Origin: Clostridium pasteurianum
Lineage (GTDB): Bacteria > Bacillota > Clostridia > Clostridiales > Clostridiaceae
Reading direction: 5' to 3'
Length of the DNA: 64,000 nt
Assembly: GCF_001705235.1 (NCBI RefSeq)
Contig: NZ_MCGV01000001.1
Coordinates: 868,001-932,000, forward strand
Shown: positions 1,427 through 58,932 of the stretch, piece by piece
Position numbering within the stretch: the first letter of the stretch is position 1
How the letters are laid out: each line of letters opens with the position of its first letter
Program-made: the position numbers and the translations under genes
Notes under the pieces: generated by a model
What the model saw: only the letters and a program-made list of their open reading frames with translations
Told to the model about the DNA's origin: nothing
Database searches by the model: none

Positions 1427-1573
1427 AATACTCCCACCTATATTTATATATTAAATATATATATATCATAATAACTAACTATTTTTTGTATAAATACTTT
1501 TTTGTTATTATTGTATTGAAATAATATTTCATCATACATTCAAAAAAAGTTGAAACAGAAAGGGTGAACAGAC
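1427..1573. promoter_or_regulatory. Divergent LysR/AEC promoter region
   Basis: 147 bp between two divergent genes, very AT-rich. It must hold both promoters and, by analogy with other LysR/transporter pairs, the LysR operator (T-N11-A type). I did not single out one convincing box, so the operator position is inference. Confidence 0.4.
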
Positions 1574-2518
1574 ATGGTTATTTTAAATTCTCTACAAAGT
1601 GTATTAAGTATTATATTAATGTTGTCAATAGGCTATTTTTTTAGCCATAAAGGATGGTTTAACAATGAAACTTCAAAACTTTTTTCTAAAGTTGTAATAA
1701 ATATAGCAGTACCCTGTTATATGGTATCAAATCTATTAACAACATATACAAAAGATAAACTTATTCAATTTGCTTCCGGCGTATTTGTACCTTTTGCTTC
1801 AATAATTATATGCTACATTTTAGGAATTATATTAGCAAAAATATTTAATATTCCATCTAACAAAAGAGGAATTTTTGTTTCAACTTTATCAATAGCTAAT
1901 ACCCTCTTTGTAGGCTTACCCGTTAATACATCACTCTTTGGAAATAAAAGCCTTCCTTTCGTCTTTATTTATTTTTTAGGTAACATAAGCTTATTCTGGA
2001 CTATAGGGGCTTTCTGTTTAGCCAAAGATGGTGGAGATAAAAAAGTACATCTTTTTTCAAGTGAAAATCTTAAAAATCTTTTTTCTCCACCTTTATGCGG
2101 ATTCATTGCTGCTATAATTCTCATTCTCCTTCAAATAACCTTGCCAAAATGTGTAATGGATACCTGCAAGTACATGGGGAATTTAGTTACCCCATTATCA
2201 ATGTTATACATAGGTATAATTATATATAACATTGATATTAAAGAAATAAAATGGGACAAATCCTTGACACTGATTACAATTGGACGTTTTATAGTTTCCC
2301 CTCTAATAGTTTTCTTAATGTGTTCTTTCCTGCATCTACCCATACTAATGGAAAAAGTTTTTATTATACAATCTGGTATGCCTGCAATGTCAATCACTTC
2401 TGTTTTATCTGAAGCCAGCGGAGGAGACTATAAATATGCTGCTGTAGTCACAACTATGACAACTCTTGCAACATTAATTTTTATTCCTATTTATATAGTA
2501 CTTTTAAGTAACCTTTAG
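1574..2518 (+). CDS. AEC family transporter (malate/auxin-efflux permease type)
   Basis: 314 residues with about ten hydrophobic segments and the family pattern of two five-helix halves, e.g. GYFFSHKGWFNNETSKLFSKV near the N-terminus and GMPAMSITSVLSEASGGD near the C-terminus. Members of the auxin efflux carrier (Mem_trans) family include malate and malonate permeases. The ATG at 1574 follows AGGGTG at a good distance. It is probably regulated by the divergent LysR gene. The substrate cannot be read from sequence; an organic acid is the usual answer for bacterial members. Confidence 0.9.
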   Translation: MVILNSLQSVLSIILMLSIGYFFSHKGWFNNETSKLFSKVVINIAVPCYMVSNLLTTYTKDKLIQFASGVFVPFASIIICYILGIILAKIFNIPSNKRGIFVSTLSIANTLFVGLPVNTSLFGNKSLPFVFIYFLGNISLFWTIGAFCLAKDGGDKKVHLFSSENLKNLFSPPLCGFIAAIILILLQITLPKCVMDTCKYMGNLVTPLSMLYIGIIIYNIDIKEIKWDKSLTLITIGRFIVSPLIVFLMCSFLHLPILMEKVFIIQSGMPAMSITSVLSEASGGDYKYAAVVTTMTTLATLIFIPIYIVLLSNL

Positions 2519-23816: not shown

Positions 23817-24842
23817 ATGGAAAAGAAAAATTTAGATTGGGCAAATCTTGGCTTTGGATATCAGCCAACAGATAAAAGGTTTGTATCAAATTATAAGGAT
23901 GGAAAATGGGATGAAGGTGCATTAACTTCAGATGCAAATGTTGTAATTAATGAATGTGCAGGTGTATTACAATATTCTCAATCATGCTTTGAAGGTATGA
24001 AAGCTTACACAACTAAGGATGGTCATATTGTTACATTCAGACCTGATTTAAACGGAGAACGTATGGAAAACTCTTGTAAAAGACTAGAAATGCCTGTTTT
24101 TCCAAAAGAAAAATTTGTAGATGCTATAGTAAAAACCATAGAGGCAAATGAAGCATGGGTACCTCCATATGGAAGTGGAGCTACTTTCTATGTTCGTCCA
24201 TATATGTTCGCATCTGGATCAGTTATTGGTGTAAAACCAGCAGATGAATATCAATTTAGAGTATTTGGGACACCAGTTGGACCATATTTCAAAGGCGGTG
24301 TTAAGCCATTAACTATACGTGTTAGTGATTTTGACCGTGCTGCACCACATGGTACTGGACATATCAAAGCCGGACTTAACTACGCAATGAGTCTTCATGC
24401 AATTGTTACTGCACATGCAGATGGCTTTGATGAAAATATGTACTTAGATGCTGCTACTAGAACAAAAGTTGAAGAAACTGGAGGAGCTAATTTCTTATTT
24501 GTAACAAAGGATAATAAAGTTGTTACACCAAAATCAAGCACTATTCTTCCTTCAATAACACGTCGTTCTTTACTTACAGTTGCAAAGGACTACCTTGGAC
24601 TTGAAGTAGAAGAAAGAGTTGTTTATTTTGATGAAGTAAAGGATTTTGCAGAATGTGGACTTTGCGGAACAGCAGCCGTTATTTCTCCAGTAGGAAAAGT
24701 AGTAGATCATGGCAAAGAAATTTGTTTCCCAAGCGGAATGACAAATGTAGGTCCTGTTATCAAAAAGTTACGTGAAACATTAACAGGAATACAAATGGGA
24801 AGCATAAAAGCACCAGATGGTTGGATAAAAGTAATTAAGTAA
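23817..24842 (+). CDS. ilvE: Branched-chain amino acid aminotransferase
   Basis: 341 residues, class IV PLP aminotransferase of the longer BCAT2-like type. Visible: QYSQSCFEGMKAYTTKDG (substrate loop), FYVRPYMFASG, GTGHIKAGLNYA with the PLP lysine, and TKVEETGGANFLFV (cofactor contact). It transfers the amino group between glutamate and the 2-oxo acids of Leu, Ile and Val. The ATG follows AAGGGAAG. Monocistronic, followed immediately by a nested palindromic repeat that may act as its terminator. Confidence 0.95.
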   Translation: MEKKNLDWANLGFGYQPTDKRFVSNYKDGKWDEGALTSDANVVINECAGVLQYSQSCFEGMKAYTTKDGHIVTFRPDLNGERMENSCKRLEMPVFPKEKFVDAIVKTIEANEAWVPPYGSGATFYVRPYMFASGSVIGVKPADEYQFRVFGTPVGPYFKGGVKPLTIRVSDFDRAAPHGTGHIKAGLNYAMSLHAIVTAHADGFDENMYLDAATRTKVEETGGANFLFVTKDNKVVTPKSSTILPSITRRSLLTVAKDYLGLEVEERVVYFDEVKDFAECGLCGTAAVISPVGKVVDHGKEICFPSGMTNVGPVIKKLRETLTGIQMGSIKAPDGWIKVIK

Positions 24843-24843
24843 A

Positions 24844-25021
24844 TTAACAATGTTGAATTAACATTAAAAAAATTCTATAAATCTAAAATAAAAAAATCAT
24901 AAAATACTAAGATATTTCAATAACTCCCTAACGGTCAGACAATTGAAACATCTAAGCATTTTATGATTTTTTTATTAAGATTTATTAGAATTTTTTTAAA
25001 TCGTTCCTTCAACATTGTTAA
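24844..25021 (+). repeat. Nested palindromic repeat, copy A (3' of ilvE)
   Basis: Begins 1 bp after the stop codon. The outermost arms are a perfect 14-bp inverted repeat (24844-24857 and 25008-25021). The inner arms are 32 bp (24890-24921 and 24942-24973) with three mismatches, including CTAAG opposite CTAAG. The 20-base loop starts AACTC and ends CAGACA. The whole can fold into one hairpin of about 175 nt. The same layout recurs at 46996, 51661 and 56940. Confidence 0.85.
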
Positions 25022-25029
25022 TTTGCTTT

Positions 25030-25080
25030 GAAAGTGAAACAAGGAAGAAATTCCTCCGTACCTACGGAATTTAATAAAGA
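25030..25080 (+). repeat. GGAA/TTCC small palindrome following copy A
   Basis: AAGGAAGAAATTCC followed by CCGTACCTACGG, a short palindromic module like the one that trails the other repeat copies (near 46690, 46940, 51760, 57140, 57340). Confidence 0.45.
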
Positions 25081-25082
25081 TA

Positions 25083-25145
25083 TATTATATCTGGTAAAGA
25101 AGGATAACAATCATATACGGGGTTTGGGTCAAAAACCCATTATTC
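25083..25145. repeat. AAGAAGGATAA...TTATTCTTCTT palindrome, copy 1
   Basis: Inverted repeat with ends AAGAAGGATAA / TTATTCTTCTT and a conserved core CGGGGTTTGGGT...ACCC. Related elements lie at 25252 and 57536, the latter in opposite orientation. Confidence 0.7.
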
Positions 25146-25251
25146 TTCTTAATTATCAATAGGCATTTTCTATATTATCACTAACAACTTCATATTAGCA
25201 CTTTCTAAATTGTCCAAACCTCACGTAATTTAAAGAGTGCTTGTATTAGGT

Positions 25252-25304
25252 TAAGAAGGATAATGGGCTAAAGCCCAAACCTCGCATATGATAATACTCA
25301 GACA
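25252..25304. repeat. AAGAAGGATAATGGG palindrome, copy 2 (partial)
   Basis: AAGAAGGATAATGGGCTAAAGCCC with AAACCTCGCATATGATAAT. It shares sequence with copies at 25083 (inverted) and 57536 but lacks the closing TATCCTTCTT. Confidence 0.6.
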
Positions 25305-46619: not shown

Positions 46620-46790
46620 ACTTCCCCCTTATTAACGGGCGAAGCAAAGTTAATACCCCTCAGCTTAGCCCCCCCATGTATAAGAGCTATTAGAAGTTTA
46701 TTCCTGTATAAACTTTTAATTCCGATTTTCCGCAGCGGACCGGAAGAAAATCATCCCTGCTTTTCCCCATAAAGTGAAGGAATAGAATTT
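46620..46790 (-). repeat. Degenerate repeat modules (GGAAGAAAATC type)
   Basis: Contains GATTTTCCGCAGCGGACCGGAAG, a palindromic module also seen at 46930-46990, 57140-57190 and 57340-57385, followed by GTTTATTCCTGTATAAAC-like pieces shared with the other copies. Non-coding. Confidence 0.5.
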
Positions 46791-46925
46791 TGGGAACAAT
46801 TTAAATAAAGCTCAATAAGTCTTGCTGCAAATTATAAAAAGACTTAGTAATTTTAATTTGTTTGAGCTTTTTCTCAGCGAGTTATTAAAATTTCTTAGTA
46901 TTTTTATAATTAAAATCTTAACCTT
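46775..46925 (-). repeat. Nested palindromic repeat, copy C1
   Basis: Read on the minus strand, the inner stem ACTAAGAAATTTTAAT...ATTAAAATTACTAAG encloses a loop AACTCGCTGAGAAAAAGCTC. One outer arm (ending CTTATTGAGCTTTATTTAAA) is present, the other is lost. It follows copy C2 in tandem, separated by the GGAAGATTTTC-type module. Confidence 0.75.
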
Positions 46926-46995
46926 ATATAAGCCTTCATTTCAGATTTTCCGTAGCGCAGTGGAAGAAAATCCTCCTTGCATCTACCTTCTGTGC

Positions 46996-47177
46996 GAAGT
47001 AACAGTATTTTGGAAACAATTTAAATAAAATTGTATAAATCTTAGGGTGATATTTTGAAAAGACTTAGAAATTTCAATCTGTCTGAACGTTAGTGAGTTA
47101 TTGAAATTTCTTAGGATTTTTAAAATATCACCCTTAGATTTATTAATTTTATTTAATGTTTCAAAATACTGTTACTT
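46996..47177 (-). repeat. Nested palindromic repeat, copy C2 (3' of the gene at 47182)
   Basis: Starts 4 bp after the stop codon of the upstream minus-strand gene. Outer arms AAGTAACAGTATTTTGRAAC and complement; middle arms around AAATCTAAGGGTGATATTTT / AAAATATCACCCTAAGATTT; inner arms CCTAAGAAATTTCAAT / ATTGAAATTTCTAAG; loop AACTCACTAACGTTCAGACAG. CTAAG faces CTAAG twice, giving the same internal A-A mismatch each time. Confidence 0.85.
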
Positions 47178-47181
47178 CACA

Positions 47182-47538
47182 CTACTTCTTCTTAGCTCTT
47201 TTAGGTTTAGCCTTTGGTTTTATAACTATCTTTTTATTCTTTTTACCGCTGTCTCTTGGGCCACCCCATCCTAAAACATCAAAGAAGGCATTAAGTGAAA
47301 ATAAAAATACTGCCATTAGGATGTAATATAGTACTTCATTCACTGTTATTTTTCCGCTGCCTAATTTAAAAGTACCTCCAAGTACAAGAGTTGCCAAAAG
47401 TAAGATTACTGTAAATACTAACACAACCCATTTGTTTAACTTTGTAATAAATAAATCTTTAACCCTGTTGTATAAAATTGTCATAGCAAACATTATTACA
47501 AGTAATATCAACATAAACGTAAAATTAAATCCCTTCAC
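47182..47538 (-). CDS. Small membrane protein co-transcribed with argS
   Basis: 118 residues from GTG 47538, which is preceded by AAGGGGGA; 12 bp after the argS stop. Three membrane segments (FTFMLILLVIMFAMTILY, WVVLVFTVILLLATLVLGG, EVLYYILMAVFLFSLNAFFD) and a strongly basic tail (KKNKKIVIKPKAKPKRAKKK), so the C-terminus probably faces the cytoplasm. Family not recognised. Being downstream of the T-box it should respond to arginine-tRNA charging. Confidence 0.75.
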   Translation of the reverse strand: MKGFNFTFMLILLVIMFAMTILYNRVKDLFITKLNKWVVLVFTVILLLATLVLGGTFKLGSGKITVNEVLYYILMAVFLFSLNAFFDVLGWGGPRDSGKKNKKIVIKPKAKPKRAKKK

Positions 47539-47550
47539 GACGATTCCCCC

Positions 47551-49242
47551 TTACATTTCTTCAACAACATCTATTCCTATGAGTTTAAGTGCACTTTTTA
47601 TAACTATTGAGACTGCCTCAACTAATGCAAGTCTTGCATTCTTTAGCTCCTCATCCTCTGTATTTGAAATATTATACATATTATAAAATTTATTAAAGGA
47701 TTTTGCAACCTCAATTACATATCTAGTTATTACAGAAGGCTCTAACCTATCTATTGAATTTAATATAACTTCTTTAAAGTTTTCTAAGTGTTTTACTATG
47801 TCAAATTCTTCATCTGAAACAAGCTTATCATACTTTATATCTCCCTTGGCAGTACCAAGTTTTCTAAGTATACTTTTAGCTCTTGCATAAGTATATTGTA
47901 CATAAGGACCTGTTTCTCCTTCAAAACTTAACATTTCCTTCCAATCAAATATTATATCTCTTTCTCTTCCATTCTTAAGATAAGTAAATATAACAGCTCC
48001 TATACCAACTTTTTTAGAAACATCTTCTTTATTTTTAAGATCAGGATTCTTCTTTTCTATTATTTCACTTGTCTTTAAAACAGACTCTTTTAATAAATCT
48101 TCAAGGAAAATTACATCTCCATTTCTGGTAGAAAGTTTTCCCTCTGCAAATCGTACAAGACCATATCCAACATGAACACAATCCTTTGCCCATTCATGTC
48201 CTGCAAGTTCTAGTACTTTTAAAAATTGTTTAAAATGAAGTGACTGCTCAAGTCCTACAACATATATACATTTATCAAAATCATAAGTTTTCTTTCTATA
48301 TTCAGCTGCTGCTAAATCCCTTGTTGCATATATACTTGCACCATCTGCTTTTTTTATTATACATGGAGGCATATTATAATCGTCTAACATTACAACCTTA
48401 GCTCCATTACTTTCAACTAAAAGTCCTTTTGACGTAAGTTCTTCTTCTATTGCATCCATCTTATCACTGTAAAAACTTTCCCCAGTATAATGATCGAATC
48501 CAACACCAAGTTCATCATAAACCCTTTTAAACTCTCTTAAACTTAAATCTTTAAATTTTGTCCAAAGCTCTACTTCTTCTTTCTCACCATCTTCAAGCTT
48601 TTTGAAATACATTCTTGCTTCATCTTCTAGTTCTGGAGCTTTTTCAGCTTCTTTATGAAACTTAACATATATCCTAAGAAGCTCTTTTATTGGATCCTTA
48701 TAAAGTGCTTCTTCATCACACCATCTTTTATATGCAGATATTAATTTACCAAACTGTGTTCCCCAATCGCCTAAATGATTTATTCTTATTCCTGTATATC
48801 CTGCTGCTGAAAATATTTTATATAACGAACTTCCAAGAACCGTACCGAATAAATGTCCTACATGAAAAGGTTTTGCTATATTAGGTGAAGAATACTCTAT
48901 GATTATTTTTTTGCCTTCCCCTACTTTTGAATGTCCATAGTTATCTCTTTCATTTAAAACCTTTTCTATGGTTTCTTTTGCAAAATCAGCTTTATCTACG
49001 AAAAAATTAAGATATGGTCCCATACTTTCTATCTTTCCAAAACCATCCTTATCTATTTTATCTTTAAGTTCTCCAGCTATCATATTAGGAGCTTTTCTTA
49101 GAATTTTAGCAAATTGAAAACATGGAAGTGCATAATCACCCATATCCTTCTTTGGTGGTATTTCTATAACATTATATAGAGCATCAATATCCACATCAAT
49201 AATTTTACCAACTTTTTCAGCTATTATTTTTTTGTAGTCCAC
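47551..49242 (-). CDS. argS: Arginyl-tRNA synthetase
   Basis: 563 residues. N-terminal Add1 domain (about 1-85), class I signature [20 protein letters not shown] (HVGH = HIGH, about 125), the middle [31 protein letters not shown] in place of KMSKS, and the DALR anticodon-binding domain ([18 protein letters not shown] to the end). Charges tRNA-Arg in the cytoplasm. Expression is under a T-box riboswitch. First gene of a two-gene operon. Confidence 0.97.
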
Positions 49243-49265: not shown

Positions 49266-49515
49266 ATAAAAAAAACGCCATCTACATAAAATGCAGAGAC
49301 GATTATATTTCGCGGTACCACTCTGATTGACTCATAGATATAACTCACAAATTTTAATGCGTTATATATAAATAAGTCCACTCTAAAATTTTAACGCTTT
49401 AAGCGGATAACTCATCTCCATGGTTCTATTTCACATATTTGAATTACTGACCTTCCATCATCATCAGCTCGCTTTAAATCTTAATATGCTACTTTCCACT
49501 TCATAGACTTTAACA
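49266..49515 (-). promoter_or_regulatory. T-box riboswitch leader of argS
   Basis: On the minus strand the leader carries the T-box core AGAGTGGTACCGCG (complement at 49311-49324), which forms the antiterminator with uncharged tRNA. It is followed by a terminator, CGTCTCTGCAT pairing with ATGTAGATGGCG and then eight T (49268-49301). Upstream, about 180 nt of stem I-III structure is present. The gene regulated implies tRNA-Arg; I did not identify the specifier codon with confidence. Confidence 0.93.
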
Positions 49516-55489: not shown

Positions 55490-56935
55490 ATGATAGAACT
55501 TATATTAGCTTTTACCTTACCTATATTTTTAATTATTGTTGCAGTGCTATATAATCAAAGAAAAATATCCTTTCTGAATAAAAGCTTCACAGGTATTTAT
55601 TTAGTTTTTGCTCCCCACATTATTTTATTCTATTATCTTTTTAGTAACTACACTAAAATCGGACAAACTCACATTGTATGCAAATGGATTATTTTAATTG
55701 AAATATTTATTTTTATTTTTTATACTTGGATAAAAGTAAATATACTTCCAACCATTAAATTGGAAAATGTAAATACACGTTTAAAGCTAATGATAGCAGG
55801 AAGACAAATTGTACTACTAGGCTTATATACACTCTTTCTTCAAATACCACTGTACATAATTTATTTTACAGAATCATGGCATTTAATCATTCCTAAACAT
55901 ATTTTTATAATAGATCTTATTATTGCAATATTATTTATACTTACCTTGCTTGCTAACGGAATGCTGCGAATATTATGTACTTCAAAAAGATTAAATATAG
56001 TTAAAAGATTTATAACAGCTTTTATGTCTCTAATTCCAATTATAAATATTTTTGCAATGCTATATGCATGTCACGTTGCAGCAATGGAATACGATCATGA
56101 ATGTTATAAAGTAAATATTAATAAAGAGCGTGTTCATTCAGAAATTTGTAAAACAAAATATCCACTTGTTTTAGTTCACGGGGTTGGCTTTAGAGATTTA
56201 AAATATATTAATTACTGGGGAAGAATTCCTAGAGAATTAATTCGTAATGGAGCCACCATTTATTATGGAAATCAAGAGGCTTGGGGAACAGTCCAATATA
56301 ATGCACACGATATAAAAAATAAAATTCTTCAAATTATTAAAGAAACAGGCTGCGAAAAAGTAAATATTATCGCTCACTCAAAGGGTGGATTAGATGCACG
56401 TTACATGGTTAGCAAACTAGGCATGGGCAAATATGTTGCATCTTTAACAATGATGTCATCACCACATAGAGGTTGCAAATTTGTTGATACAGCTTGCAAA
56501 ATTCCTGATAAAATCTATAAGACTGTTGCCAAATTTTTTGATAAGTATTATAAAATCTTAGGCGATAAAAATCCAGATTTTTATACAGCTAGTAGACAAT
56601 TCTCAACTTATCACAGTATGAATTTTAATAAAGAAGTAACAGATGTACCTGATGTTTATTATCAAAGTTATGCATCTGCAGTAAAAAATATATTTAGCGA
56701 CTATGTGGTATCTATTCCTTATATTTTTTCAAAATTAACCGCAGGTGAAAATGATGGACTAGTATCCATTGACTCTGCAAAATGGGGGGATTTCAGAGGA
56801 GTCTTAAGAAATAATCATAGACGTGGTATTTCCCATGGAGATATCATAGATTTAAGAAGAGAAGATTACAAAGGTTTCGATATATTAGAAAAATACGTTG
56901 AGATTGTATCTGAACTAAAAAATAAAGGATTTTAA
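55490..56935 (+). CDS. Membrane-anchored lipase-like alpha/beta hydrolase
   Basis: 481 residues from ATG 55490 (an ATG 12 bp upstream overlaps the AAAGG site). Residues 1-205 have five to six membrane segments (e.g. LILAFTLPIFLIIVAVLY, LIIAILFILTLLANGMLRIL). Residues about 220-480 are a triacylglycerol-lipase domain: PLVLVHGVGFRD (oxyanion), NIIAHSKGGLDARYM (nucleophile Ser in AHSKG), the Asp in AGENDGLVS and the His of NNHRRGISHGDIID. LipA/esterase-like lipases normally are secreted without such a membrane domain. The nearby 3' repeat array may terminate it. Confidence 0.85.
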   Translation: MIELILAFTLPIFLIIVAVLYNQRKISFLNKSFTGIYLVFAPHIILFYYLFSNYTKIGQTHIVCKWIILIEIFIFIFYTWIKVNILPTIKLENVNTRLKLMIAGRQIVLLGLYTLFLQIPLYIIYFTESWHLIIPKHIFIIDLIIAILFILTLLANGMLRILCTSKRLNIVKRFITAFMSLIPIINIFAMLYACHVAAMEYDHECYKVNINKERVHSEICKTKYPLVLVHGVGFRDLKYINYWGRIPRELIRNGATIYYGNQEAWGTVQYNAHDIKNKILQIIKETGCEKVNIIAHSKGGLDARYMVSKLGMGKYVASLTMMSSPHRGCKFVDTACKIPDKIYKTVAKFFDKYYKILGDKNPDFYTASRQFSTYHSMNFNKEVTDVPDVYYQSYASAVKNIFSDYVVSIPYIFSKLTAGENDGLVSIDSAKWGDFRGVLRNNHRRGISHGDIIDLRREDYKGFDILEKYVEIVSELKNKGF

Positions 56936-56939
56936 TGGG

Positions 56940-57125
56940 AAGTAACAGTATTTTAGAACATTAAATAAAACTCATAAGACTAAGCTTCAAATAATGAAAA
57001 TACTAAGAAATTTTAATAACTCGCTGAAAAAAAGCTCAAACAAATTAAAATTTCTAAGTCTTTTCATTATTTGGAGCAAAGTCTTATTGAGTTTTATTTA
57101 AATCGTTCTCAAAATACTGTTACTT
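56940..57125 (+). repeat. Nested palindromic repeat, copy E (3' of the lipase gene)
   Basis: Starts 5 bp after the stop. Outer arms AAGTAACAGTATTTTAGAAC (56940-56959) and complement at 57105-57125; inner arms of 29 bp (56989-57017 and 57044-57072) with CTAAG facing CTAAG as the main mismatch; 26-base loop beginning AACTCGCTGA. It shares its outer arms almost word for word with copy C2 10 kb away, although the inner arms differ. Confidence 0.88.
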
Positions 57126-57200
57126 CTCATAGAAGGTAGAGGCAAGGAAAATTTTCTTCCGCTCTGCTGCGGAAAATCCGAATCAAAAGTTTATACAGAG
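57126..57200 (+). repeat. GGAAAATTTTCTTCCGC module 1
   Basis: AGAAGGTAGAGGCAAGGAAAATTTTC followed by TTCCGCTCTGCTGCGGAA and AAAAGTTTATAC. A palindromic spacer unit repeated at 57325 and, in reverse, at 46930-46990. No coding potential. Confidence 0.7.
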
Positions 57201-57320
57201 TTAAACTTTTAATAACTCGCTGAAAAAAAGCTCAGACAAATTAAAATTTCTAAGTCTTTTCATTATTGGGAGCAAAGTCTTATTGAATTTTATTTAAATC
57301 GTTCTCAAAATACTGCTACT
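57200..57320 (+). repeat. Nested palindromic repeat, copy F (left arm lost)
   Basis: AACTTTTAATAACTCGCTGAA...CAGACAAATTAAAATTTCTAAG followed by outer arm TATTTAAATCGTTCTCAAAATACTG. It matches copy E from the loop rightwards; the left half is replaced by the preceding module. Confidence 0.8.
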
Positions 57321-57324
57321 TCCC

Positions 57325-57485
57325 ATAGAAGGTAGAGGCAAGGAAGATTTTCTTCCGCTCCGCTGCTGAAAATCTGAATTAAAAGTTTATACAAAGTTAA
57401 ACTTTTAATAACTCTATGAAAAAAATCTAATTAAAAATCATAAAATTTCTAAGTCTTTTTATGATTTTTAATTAGATTTTTTTAT
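57325..57485 (+). repeat. Module 2 and copy G of the nested palindrome
   Basis: A second GGAAGATTTTCTTCCGC module, then AACTTTTAATAACTCTATGAA and a separate stem AAAAATCTAATTAAAAATCATAAA...TTTATGATTTTTAATTAGATTTTT. It completes a tandem of three units with period about 190 bp (56940, 57200, 57390). Confidence 0.7.
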
Positions 57486-57531
57486 TAAGAAATTGAATTT
57501 ATTAATCGTAAAAATTAAAATAGCCTGTATT

Positions 57532-57600
57532 TTATAAAGAAGGATAATGGGTCTTTAACCCAAACCCCGGATATGATAATTATCCTTCTTTACCAAAATA
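57532..57600. repeat. AAGAAGGATAATGGGT palindrome, copy 3
   Basis: AAGAAGGATAATGGGTCTTTAACCC with CCCGGATATGATAATTATCCTTCTT. Ends are complementary (AAGAAGGATAAT/ATTATCCTTCTT) and a short GGGT/ACCC stem lies inside. Same family as 25083 and 25252. Confidence 0.75.
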
Positions 57601-57753
57601 TAATATATTTTTGTATTTATAATAATATATTATATTTTATTGGTAACCCAATATAACCTGAACCCCAGTTAGGATAAGATTTATAGAATTTTTTTAATGT
57701 TACAAATCAATGTTAATTCACTTTATTTTTATTTAGTACAACAACATTAAATT
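57601..57753. other. AT-rich intergenic tail with repeat remnant
   Basis: Contains GATTTATAGAATTTTTTTAATGTTACAAATCAATGTTAATTCACTTTA at about 57675-57725, which resembles the right end of copy A (25000-25027). Otherwise featureless. Confidence 0.4.
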
Positions 57754-58932
57754 TTATAACAAGCTTACAAACTTATCTATAAATGCATCTGCTTCCTTAA
57801 ATTCTTTGTCACTAGGTACAAACTTAAATCTAAATCCTGCATCAGGTATTTTAAATTTTAAAGACTTTAATCTATCCATCATCATTGGAACACCTTCGCC
57901 GCTCCATCCATAAGAACCAAAAGCAGCTGCTGCCTTTCCCCTGTTTATTATTGGACAAACTGAAGAAAGTAAATCCCACACAGGTTTTACAGCATCCTGA
58001 TTTATTGTAGGAGATCCAACTAATATACCATCTGCATTATCTACTAAGCTCACTATATTACCCATTTCCATCTCAGTTATTTCATGCACATCTGCTTTAA
58101 TGCCTTTTTTGTTTATGCCTTCACATAAATATTTTGCAACTTTACCTGTATTTCCATATGCTGTAATATAAAATATTTGCACATTTTTTTCATCATTTAC
58201 TTTTGGTTTTGCCCAGCTCCTATAAAGTTCCATGCTTTTTTCTATATTCTTCACATGAACCGGTCCGTGACTTGGAGCTATCATATTGAGCTTTAAATCC
58301 TTTATTTTATCAAGACCCATATTTACGAATCTCTTAAATGGTGACATTATTACATCAAAATAATATTTCATTTCTGGAAGATAATCTTCTTTAACCGCAT
58401 CCGTTATTTTACCTTCAGGGCAATAGTGGCAGCCCATAACATCACATGTAAATAATATTTTATTTTCTTCATTATAAGTGAACATAGTGTCTGGCCAGTG
58501 CAAATTAGGTGCTGATATGAATTTCAAAGTATTTTTTCCTAAATTTAATTCTTTAACAGCCACAGCATCCAAGCTTTCAAAATCATCATTCACTATTTCC
58601 TTTAAATACATGTTAGCTGCTTTAGTTGACACAACCTTAGCTTCTGGGTACTCCTTTATTAATCTATACATTGAACCACTGTGATCTAATTCTGTATGTT
58701 GTACTATTATATAATCTACTTTTTTATCTCCTATTACACTTCTTATATTAGCTAAAAACTCATCAAAAAATCCATCTTTTACACTATCAATTATTGCGAT
58801 TTTATCATCATTAATTAAGTAAGAATTATAAGTTGAACCTTTTTTAGTATCCATTATTATGTCGAAAACCTTTAGTTCCTTATCTTTTACACCAACCCAG
58901 TATACATCATTTTGAAGCTTTTCAATACTCAT
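57754..58932 (-). CDS. fprA: FprA-type flavodiiron protein (A-type flavoprotein)
   Basis: 392 residues. N-terminal metallo-beta-lactamase-like diiron domain with HTELDHSG (H-x-E-x-D-H ligands, about 80-85) and [12 protein letters not shown] (Asp ligand), then a flavodoxin domain from about 255 ([33 protein letters not shown] loop). It reduces O2 to water (or NO to N2O) with electrons from rubredoxin/NADH, protecting anaerobes from oxygen. GGAGGAATT before the ATG. Monocistronic. Confidence 0.95.

Follow-up and report, generated by a model that had tools for sequence, protein, structure and literature searches.

Hairpin repeats at gene 3' ends in clostridia keep a constant tip on arms that change together

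In the clostridial DNA considered here, an ORF of 485 aa, which we take to be a lipase gene as it was named when the sequence was first read, is followed by a run of nested hairpins, the arms of which differ between copies while remaining complementary to each other. The question raised by this locus is what keeps such arms complementary. The sequence-only reading proposed a selected RNA or DNA structure rather than a passive terminator, based on compensatory arm changes around a constant loop start and a constant internal mismatch. The window, by which we mean the whole stretch of 64,000 nt that was analyzed (G000:C1:868001-932000), belongs to a clostridial genome of 4.68 Mb in two contigs.

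The first unit of the array, copy E, starts directly after the TAA (56933-56935) of this ORF and is a near-perfect hairpin of 195 nt that folds as one hairpin with an MFE of -91.2 kcal/mol (z -16.9; 0 of 200 shuffled sequences folded as well). The inner and distal arms of the copies at 24846, 46993, and 56936 match the letters given in the sequence-only reading. The features of the window that are used below are as follows:

24846-25036, plus strand: copy A, a full hairpin, arms of type A, shortly behind the gene that ends at 24842
46755-46928, minus strand: partial unit in tandem after copy C2 (HMM match)
46993-47183, minus strand: copy C2, a full hairpin behind the minus-strand gene 47182-47538
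56936-57130, plus strand: copy E, a complete hairpin with left arm, tip, and right arm (fold and inverted repeats)
57003-57007, plus strand: left CTAAG, which faces the right CTAAG with a constant A.A mismatch (aligned copies)
57018-57042, plus strand: tip of copy E, AACTC, a variable mini-stem, and TCARACA, with invariant framing letters (alignment and pattern search)
57054-57058, plus strand: right CTAAG, the partner of 57003-57007 (aligned copies)
57131-57190, plus strand: tail T, which contains a small hairpin (GGAAAATTTTCTTCCGC...GCGGAAAATCC)
57191-57326, plus strand: copy F, a partial unit with tip and right arm and without a left arm (94% identity to the unit from 57008)
57327-57399, plus strand: tail of F (repeat D1)
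57400-57485, plus strand: copy G, the last partial unit, diverged and without a left arm
57530-57600, plus strand: module M (AAGAAGGATAATGGG...CCCAAACC...ATTATCCTTCTT), another repeat, found beside hairpins or breaking into them (by eye)
57675-57732, minus strand: piece of the left arm of a hairpin in the opposite orientation, which faces the gene ending at 57754 (weak HMM match, 26 bits)

The tandem behind the lipase gene is real, because 57008-57203 and 57204-57399 are 94% identical at a spacing of 196 nt and a third, diverged partial unit follows from 57400. The earlier description of E, F, and G as units of about 190 bp holds for this tandem, but not for the hairpin itself: only E is complete, and the 196-nt units comprise the tip, right arm, and tail without the left arm. 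Copy G contains a separate perfect hairpin (57419-57445/57457-57483, 27 of 27 bp, 11-nt loop) with TTTTTTT at its end. No T-run follows the right foot of the complete hairpin. No plus-strand intrinsic terminator was called in 56850-57800 by a scan that allowed loops of 3-8 nt and thus could not reach the T-ending unit G, and a minus-strand terminator was called at 57176-57155, within tail T. Tails resembling tail T were seen by eye behind many of the printed copies. Across the copies, the foot of the hairpin has the consensus G-N-GAAGTAAC on the left and GTTACTTC-N-C on the right (182 left and 183 right ends).

Several arrangements accompany these hairpins in the window and at other loci. Tandem arrays of up to four full or partial units, spaced at approximately 196-260 nt, are present at L126, L140, and 57191-57485 of the window, and hairpins that face each other with their left feet outward at L036, L040, L047, L052, L090, and 56936-57732 of the window. 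The facing hairpins often lie between convergent genes and turn the space between these into a nested inverted repeat several hundred bp long. Module M, which may also be written AAGAAGGATAATGGGC...CCCAAACC.CG..TATGATAA, breaks hairpins at or near the tip, as judged by eye, and looks like another palindromic element nesting in them; it was noted at 57530-57600 and 25100-25300 of the window and at L024, L038, L041, and L107.

The view of a local array has been replaced by that of a repeat that is genome-wide and clostridia-wide. A first look at the genome gave 398 candidates, 40 of which were scored, with 128 matching pieces, and the exact tip pattern matched the genome 120 times against 0 for a reversed control. 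A profile search of the window and the fetched stretches L001-L148 identified 146 distinct full hairpins in this genome (345 non-overlapping hits per locus, in which overlapping loci are counted more than once), and two congeners contributed 38 further copies from 32 loci. In the nested insertions at L011, L023, L024, and L033, partial left arms are followed by a new full copy, with no clean right junction.

These copies have a preferred place and direction. The left foot lies within -30 to +40 nt of a same-strand stop codon in 106 of the 146 copies, and the right foot, by the mirrored measure, in none within the same range and in 13 within -150 to +60 nt. When ORFs of at least 90 codons were considered (at least 70 for those running off the stretch), 113 of the 146 copies followed a same-strand ORF with its stop at -150 to +60 nt from the left foot, as did 23 of the 38 congener copies, and the TAA inside GAAGTAAC serves as the stop codon for 36 copies. 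The 40 copies of this genome without a close same-strand stop comprise 16 at small ORFs, 11 that face divergent gene starts, seven beside repeats, three with far stops, and three with none.

The sites occupied by the repeat were compared with those of a relative (G001, chromosome of 3,940,880 bp), which we take to be C. acetobutylicum ATCC 824. In this relative, 47 bp separate the matches to the two genes that flank the array, compared with 818 bp here, and the 47-bp stretch is, by eye, one symmetrical hairpin. Among 17 further gene ends, 12 gave usable sites and five did not, and the hairpin repeat was absent at all 13 sites compared (the array site and 12 other gene ends), the boundaries of which are accurate to within several nt (the left anchor of L084 is spurious, with the native sequence TTAACAAG, and L136 is uncertain). 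In nine of the 12 stretches, each comprising the 75 nt around and beyond the matching point, the fold has -14.5 kcal/mol or less, and it is weak in the other three; a terminator-like simple hairpin is present at 10 of the 13 sites. In the whole genome of this relative, the tip pattern had 0 matches, and the covariance model one marginal match (E 9e-4) and none at 1e-4. The proposal of something other than a passive terminator is half right, in that the repeat itself lacks a T-run but occupies sites where the relative mostly has terminator-like hairpins. From these sequences, terminator sites look like recurrent targets, unless old copies have been overwritten. Two genes carry the hairpin both in this genome and in a congener, and in neither case are the two copies nearest neighbors; repeated arrival would produce such non-neighbor copies at shared genes, but replacement by gene conversion would look alike.

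Regarding the arms, pairing of 80% or more was found in 169 copies (136 from this genome and 33 from congeners). These were the source of an alignment, for which 100 were drawn (70 of our own at random and the first 30 congener copies) and 17, mostly of odd length, were dropped by eye beforehand. The resulting alignment comprised 83 distinct copies of three species; of its 80 pairs, 49 changed on both sides, and the 870 double-changed cells compare with 298.5 +/- 17.6 in shuffles (0 of 500 reached 870) and only 87-144 in slid registers. The compensatory arm changes of the sequence-only reading are thus real and large, and the covariation did not vanish in a larger alignment. The A.A mismatch of CTAAG opposite CTAAG was non-pairing in 83 of 83 copies, as was a second column pair (A.A/G.A), and a third was unpaired in 81 of 83. 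The constancy claimed for this mismatch and for the loop start AACTC is, therefore, confirmed, the latter in a sample of 35 sequences described below, and suggests that the tip and mismatches are under selection. Among changes private to subfamilies, 10 paired doubles were found against 36 singles and eight unpaired doubles (50 copies). The element did not turn out to be a described family in Rfam 15 either: no gathering score was reached in the array, the best sub-threshold hits of which were to miRNA families and far under their thresholds, and five distant loci gave 0 matches. The only match above the gathering threshold in the window was a T-box leader at 49292-49513 (minus strand), upstream of the gene 47551-49242.

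Base pairs that are selected in an RNA are expected to tolerate G-U more than A-C. Five sets of counts were compared with this expectation, which rests on established knowledge of RNA: the G-U:A-C ratio was 52:55 in 46 usable copies out of 48, 191:271 in the 169 copies (G-U in 191 of 13,201 pairs), 123:137 for single changes between nearest neighbors, 52:67 in 20 loci of the distant genomes G132 and G097, and 41:42 in 22 loci from a further nine genomes (including one false positive). The share of G-U was 0.41-0.49, and no set had an excess of G-U over A-C. Only the set of 191:271 departs from equality, and it does so towards A-C (binomial, p 0.0002; the copies are not independent), a surplus that a weak RNA signal from the other strand could explain. 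Alternatively, G-U may lack an excess because inserted copies decay neutrally while the master from which they derive is under selection.

The way in which pairs are exchanged was followed in 68 disjoint nearest-neighbor pairs, in which 223 double changes from one Watson-Crick pair to another and 401 single changes were counted, with approximately 19 doubles expected by chance (222 doubles and 406 singles when ties were broken differently). Among the 223 doubles, 103 were transversions, which no G-U intermediate can yield in one pair of steps. The 24 closest pairs had 38 doubles against 1.7 expected, together with 106 singles; 21 of these doubles were transversions and 17 lay within 2 nt of another. 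The copying of one arm onto the other in DNA would give no G-U excess and many transversion doubles, as counted, but the overall surplus of singles over doubles is a point against it. We infer from these sequence comparisons that short tracts are copied from arm to arm at the DNA level; a complete renewal of the arms is unlikely because unpaired positions survive. In passages of Monttinen and Loytynoja (2022; PMC8794818), template switching is described as a process that makes and keeps hairpins, and instant compensatory changes of several bases are explained by one arm being copied from the other. Of the selected structure proposed for this locus, the large covariation and the constant tip and mismatch remain, whereas the lack of a G-U excess in five sets and the frequency of transversions do not support the reading of this covariation as selection for a base-paired RNA.

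The exact tip pattern, when searched in 84,980 species, gave 32 stretches that all belong to C. guangxiense or C. hydrogenum (the window's genome may not be included). R1, a covariance model built on the upper hairpin from 46 sequences with 29 pairs, gives rough E-values. At E 1e-3, it had matches in 50 of 206 Clostridiaceae genomes (13 of 46 genera), and at E 1e-4 in 49 of 225 genomes of the order (19 of 56 genera); 50 loci (8 + 20 + 22) were read individually. CTAAG was present on both sides in all 20 loci of G132 and G097, with a same-strand stop near the left end in 16 and an opposite-strand stop near the right end in three, these ends being derived from an over-extended alignment. In the 22 loci of nine other genomes, the tip was found in 21 and an upstream stop in 15; locus L264 of G040 was rejected as a hairpin because it is coding sequence, a false positive of R1. 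The tip was seen in 11 genera beyond that of the window on largely different arms; by eye, the arms outside the constant boxes are largely unrelated between genera, and distant genomes share the tip and not the ends. When 35 sequences chosen from 12 genera were aligned, the AACTC and TCA-R-ACA columns were invariant, and 304 of 315 positions beside the tip were Watson-Crick and three were G-U; there were 26 different 9-nt stems beside the tip, with all 35 sequences pairing at seven or more of nine positions in the best of twelve registers. A description of this repeat was not found in the literature searched, which consisted mostly of open-access papers. A clostridial genome of 2.8 Mb (G122) is dense in hairpin repeats, with 89 matches, the strand of which flips about halfway, by eye, as expected if the copies track gene orientation.

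From these results, the repeat appears to belong to a family of spreading DNA hairpins that has not been described. With moderate confidence, we regard the repeat as a large family of interspersed DNA hairpins at gene 3' ends that is mobile, uses terminator sites, has a constant tip, in which the internal loop AACTC...TCARACA encloses a variable mini-stem, as well as constant A.A mismatches, and has long arms that evolve in concert. We infer mobility, recognition of a folded strand, and the copying mechanism from sequence comparisons. The repeat would spread as a non-autonomous element that settles at a terminator just behind a stop codon, and the tip and mismatches may be read by a protein of the host or of a transposon on the folded single strand. 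The arms would be kept complementary by the copying of short tracts of one onto the other, through template switching in the hairpin, and not by pairwise RNA selection, while the tandem units of tip and right arm may result from slippage in the same structure. A parent transposon was not found in the four loci read for it; the ORFs beside or between their hairpins were a Zn-finger-like fragment (L037) and an IS200-type gene (L023). The fragment, CPICGS...NGKQRY, lies directly behind a hairpin tail at 1178-1312 of L037 and is presumably a transposase-like N-terminus, and the gene at 1543-2016 (minus strand) of L023 is a complete-looking IS200-type (Y1) transposase gene inside a hairpin array. 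The Y1 transposase domain (PF01797) does not track the repeat, with three matches in this genome, four in G001, which has no repeat, two in G002, and none in G003, which has it; a Y1/REP route was rejected on the grounds of its absence from this carrier and presence in this non-carrier.

The strongest rival is a selected 3'-UTR RNA that is transcribed with the upstream gene, the tip of which is bound by an RNA-binding protein or an RNase, and which terminates, protects, or marks the mRNA, with compensatory mutations keeping the stem. The position and conserved tip would fit this explanation too, as would the sense orientation directly behind stop codons where the relative mostly has terminator-like hairpins, the very stable fold, and the constant internal mismatches; however, we consider it unlikely in view of the rarity of G-U and its lack of excess over A-C, the transversions among double changes, and the 11 copies that face divergent gene starts. 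An ordinary MITE or a palindrome of the REP/ERIC type, for which the transposase recognizes the ends, the folded form has no role, and the orientation towards stop codons reflects the tolerance of the site, would account for the many interspersed copies and for the terminal inverted repeats G-N-GAAGTAAC and GTTACTTC-N-C, and clustering at 3' ends is known for other repeats (REPs of E. coli and P. putida, Ype, and Efa, in passages of PMC1590033). We judge this to be distinctly unlikely since the conserved letters are located at the tip and internal mismatches and not at the ends, and tolerance alone leaves the 106 left against 0 right ends at stop codons unexplained.

Two further explanations concern known enzymes. 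Integron attC sites immediately follow stop codons and differ in sequence, and their structure with extrahelical bases is preserved; their core is RYYYAAC...GTTRRRY. A folded recombination site of this type, used by a tyrosine recombinase, would resemble the hairpin in its place, variable stems, and extrahelical bases; it is nevertheless very improbable because the ends GTTACTTC do not fit GTTRRRY and the copies are scattered singly behind genes with repeat-less C. acetobutylicum orthologues instead of forming a cassette array. Class C group II introns favor terminators and insert in the sense orientation, which would suit an insertion borne by a reverse transcriptase of the group II intron or retron type. 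This route is barely credible and was rejected for the carriers of the window's genus examined, as PF00078 was absent from this genome, G002, and G003 and its single match was in the non-carrier G001.

The spreading DNA hairpin, which we prefer to these rivals, has partial counterparts. Based on passages of PMC1590033, REP/BIME and the Bor repeats of Bordetella are likewise palindromic, extragenic, and in high copy number, with Bor close to coding regions, and the REPs of E. coli and P. putida are stem-loops clustered at 3' ends like the clostridial hairpins. REPs measure 20-40 bp (passages of PMC3733652), whereas the hairpins here reach 195 nt or more, have a constant tip and free arms, and are not tracked by Y1 transposases. 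ERIC and NEMIS are larger intergenic repeats that are cotranscribed and fold, and Ype and Efa prefer 3' ends (passages of PMC1590033); in the clostridial family, the stems are swapped freely between genera while the tip stays. The cases covered in the passages of PMC8794818 are RNA genes, while a dispersed repeat of many copies makes rates and direction measurable. Intrinsic terminators have the same position, nine of the 12 orthologous C. acetobutylicum stretches being stable folds as described above, but they consist of a G+C-rich stem and a T-run, and the clostridial hairpin is several times larger without a T-run after its right foot. The attC sites share variable stems, conserved unpaired bases, and the place behind stop codons, and differ in their core ends, arrays, and motif layout.

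Should one arm indeed be copied onto the other, a selected RNA could not be proven by covariation alone, and the hundreds of replicas represent a natural experiment in which template switching could be measured. Should the tip be recognized in folded DNA, a structure-specific mobile system would be widespread in clostridia, with its enzyme to be found. In either case, hairpin repeats without an Rfam match in the loci searched reshape gene 3' ends in many genera, the carriers of which probably include gas-fermenting clostridial species.

The tip motif also occurs outside clostridia. The pattern AACTCGCN{2,4}GCTCARACA was found in at least 120 viral-contig stretches. A global arm score, by which three of 123 contexts among the matches listed were hairpin-like, was replaced by a local stem test, by which 17 of 82 distinct tip contexts among the matches listed reached a stem score of at least 7 and 65 did not, the rate for shuffled arms being 0.27%; the stems of these 17 mostly differ from one another. 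The window's hairpin had no match in phage and plasmid records, nor did two distant clostridial hairpins in plasmid records, the viral-contig hairpin of L286 in phages and plasmids, or that of L402 in plasmids; the stretch around the contig-2 copy matched five plasmid records, all outside the hairpin. We tentatively raise the possibility, which on balance we doubt, of a mobile class that crosses phyla, in which a folded tip AACTCGCNNNGCTCARACA, the only defining feature and free to sit on any stem, would be read on single-stranded DNA by a putative enzyme and inserted at terminators; the arms would be informative only by their complementarity, renewed through hairpin-templated copying, and the clostridial hairpins would form one branch. 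In viral contigs including L284, L298, L303, L344, and L386, the tip is carried on unrelated stems, some of which lie beside a TTAACG box.
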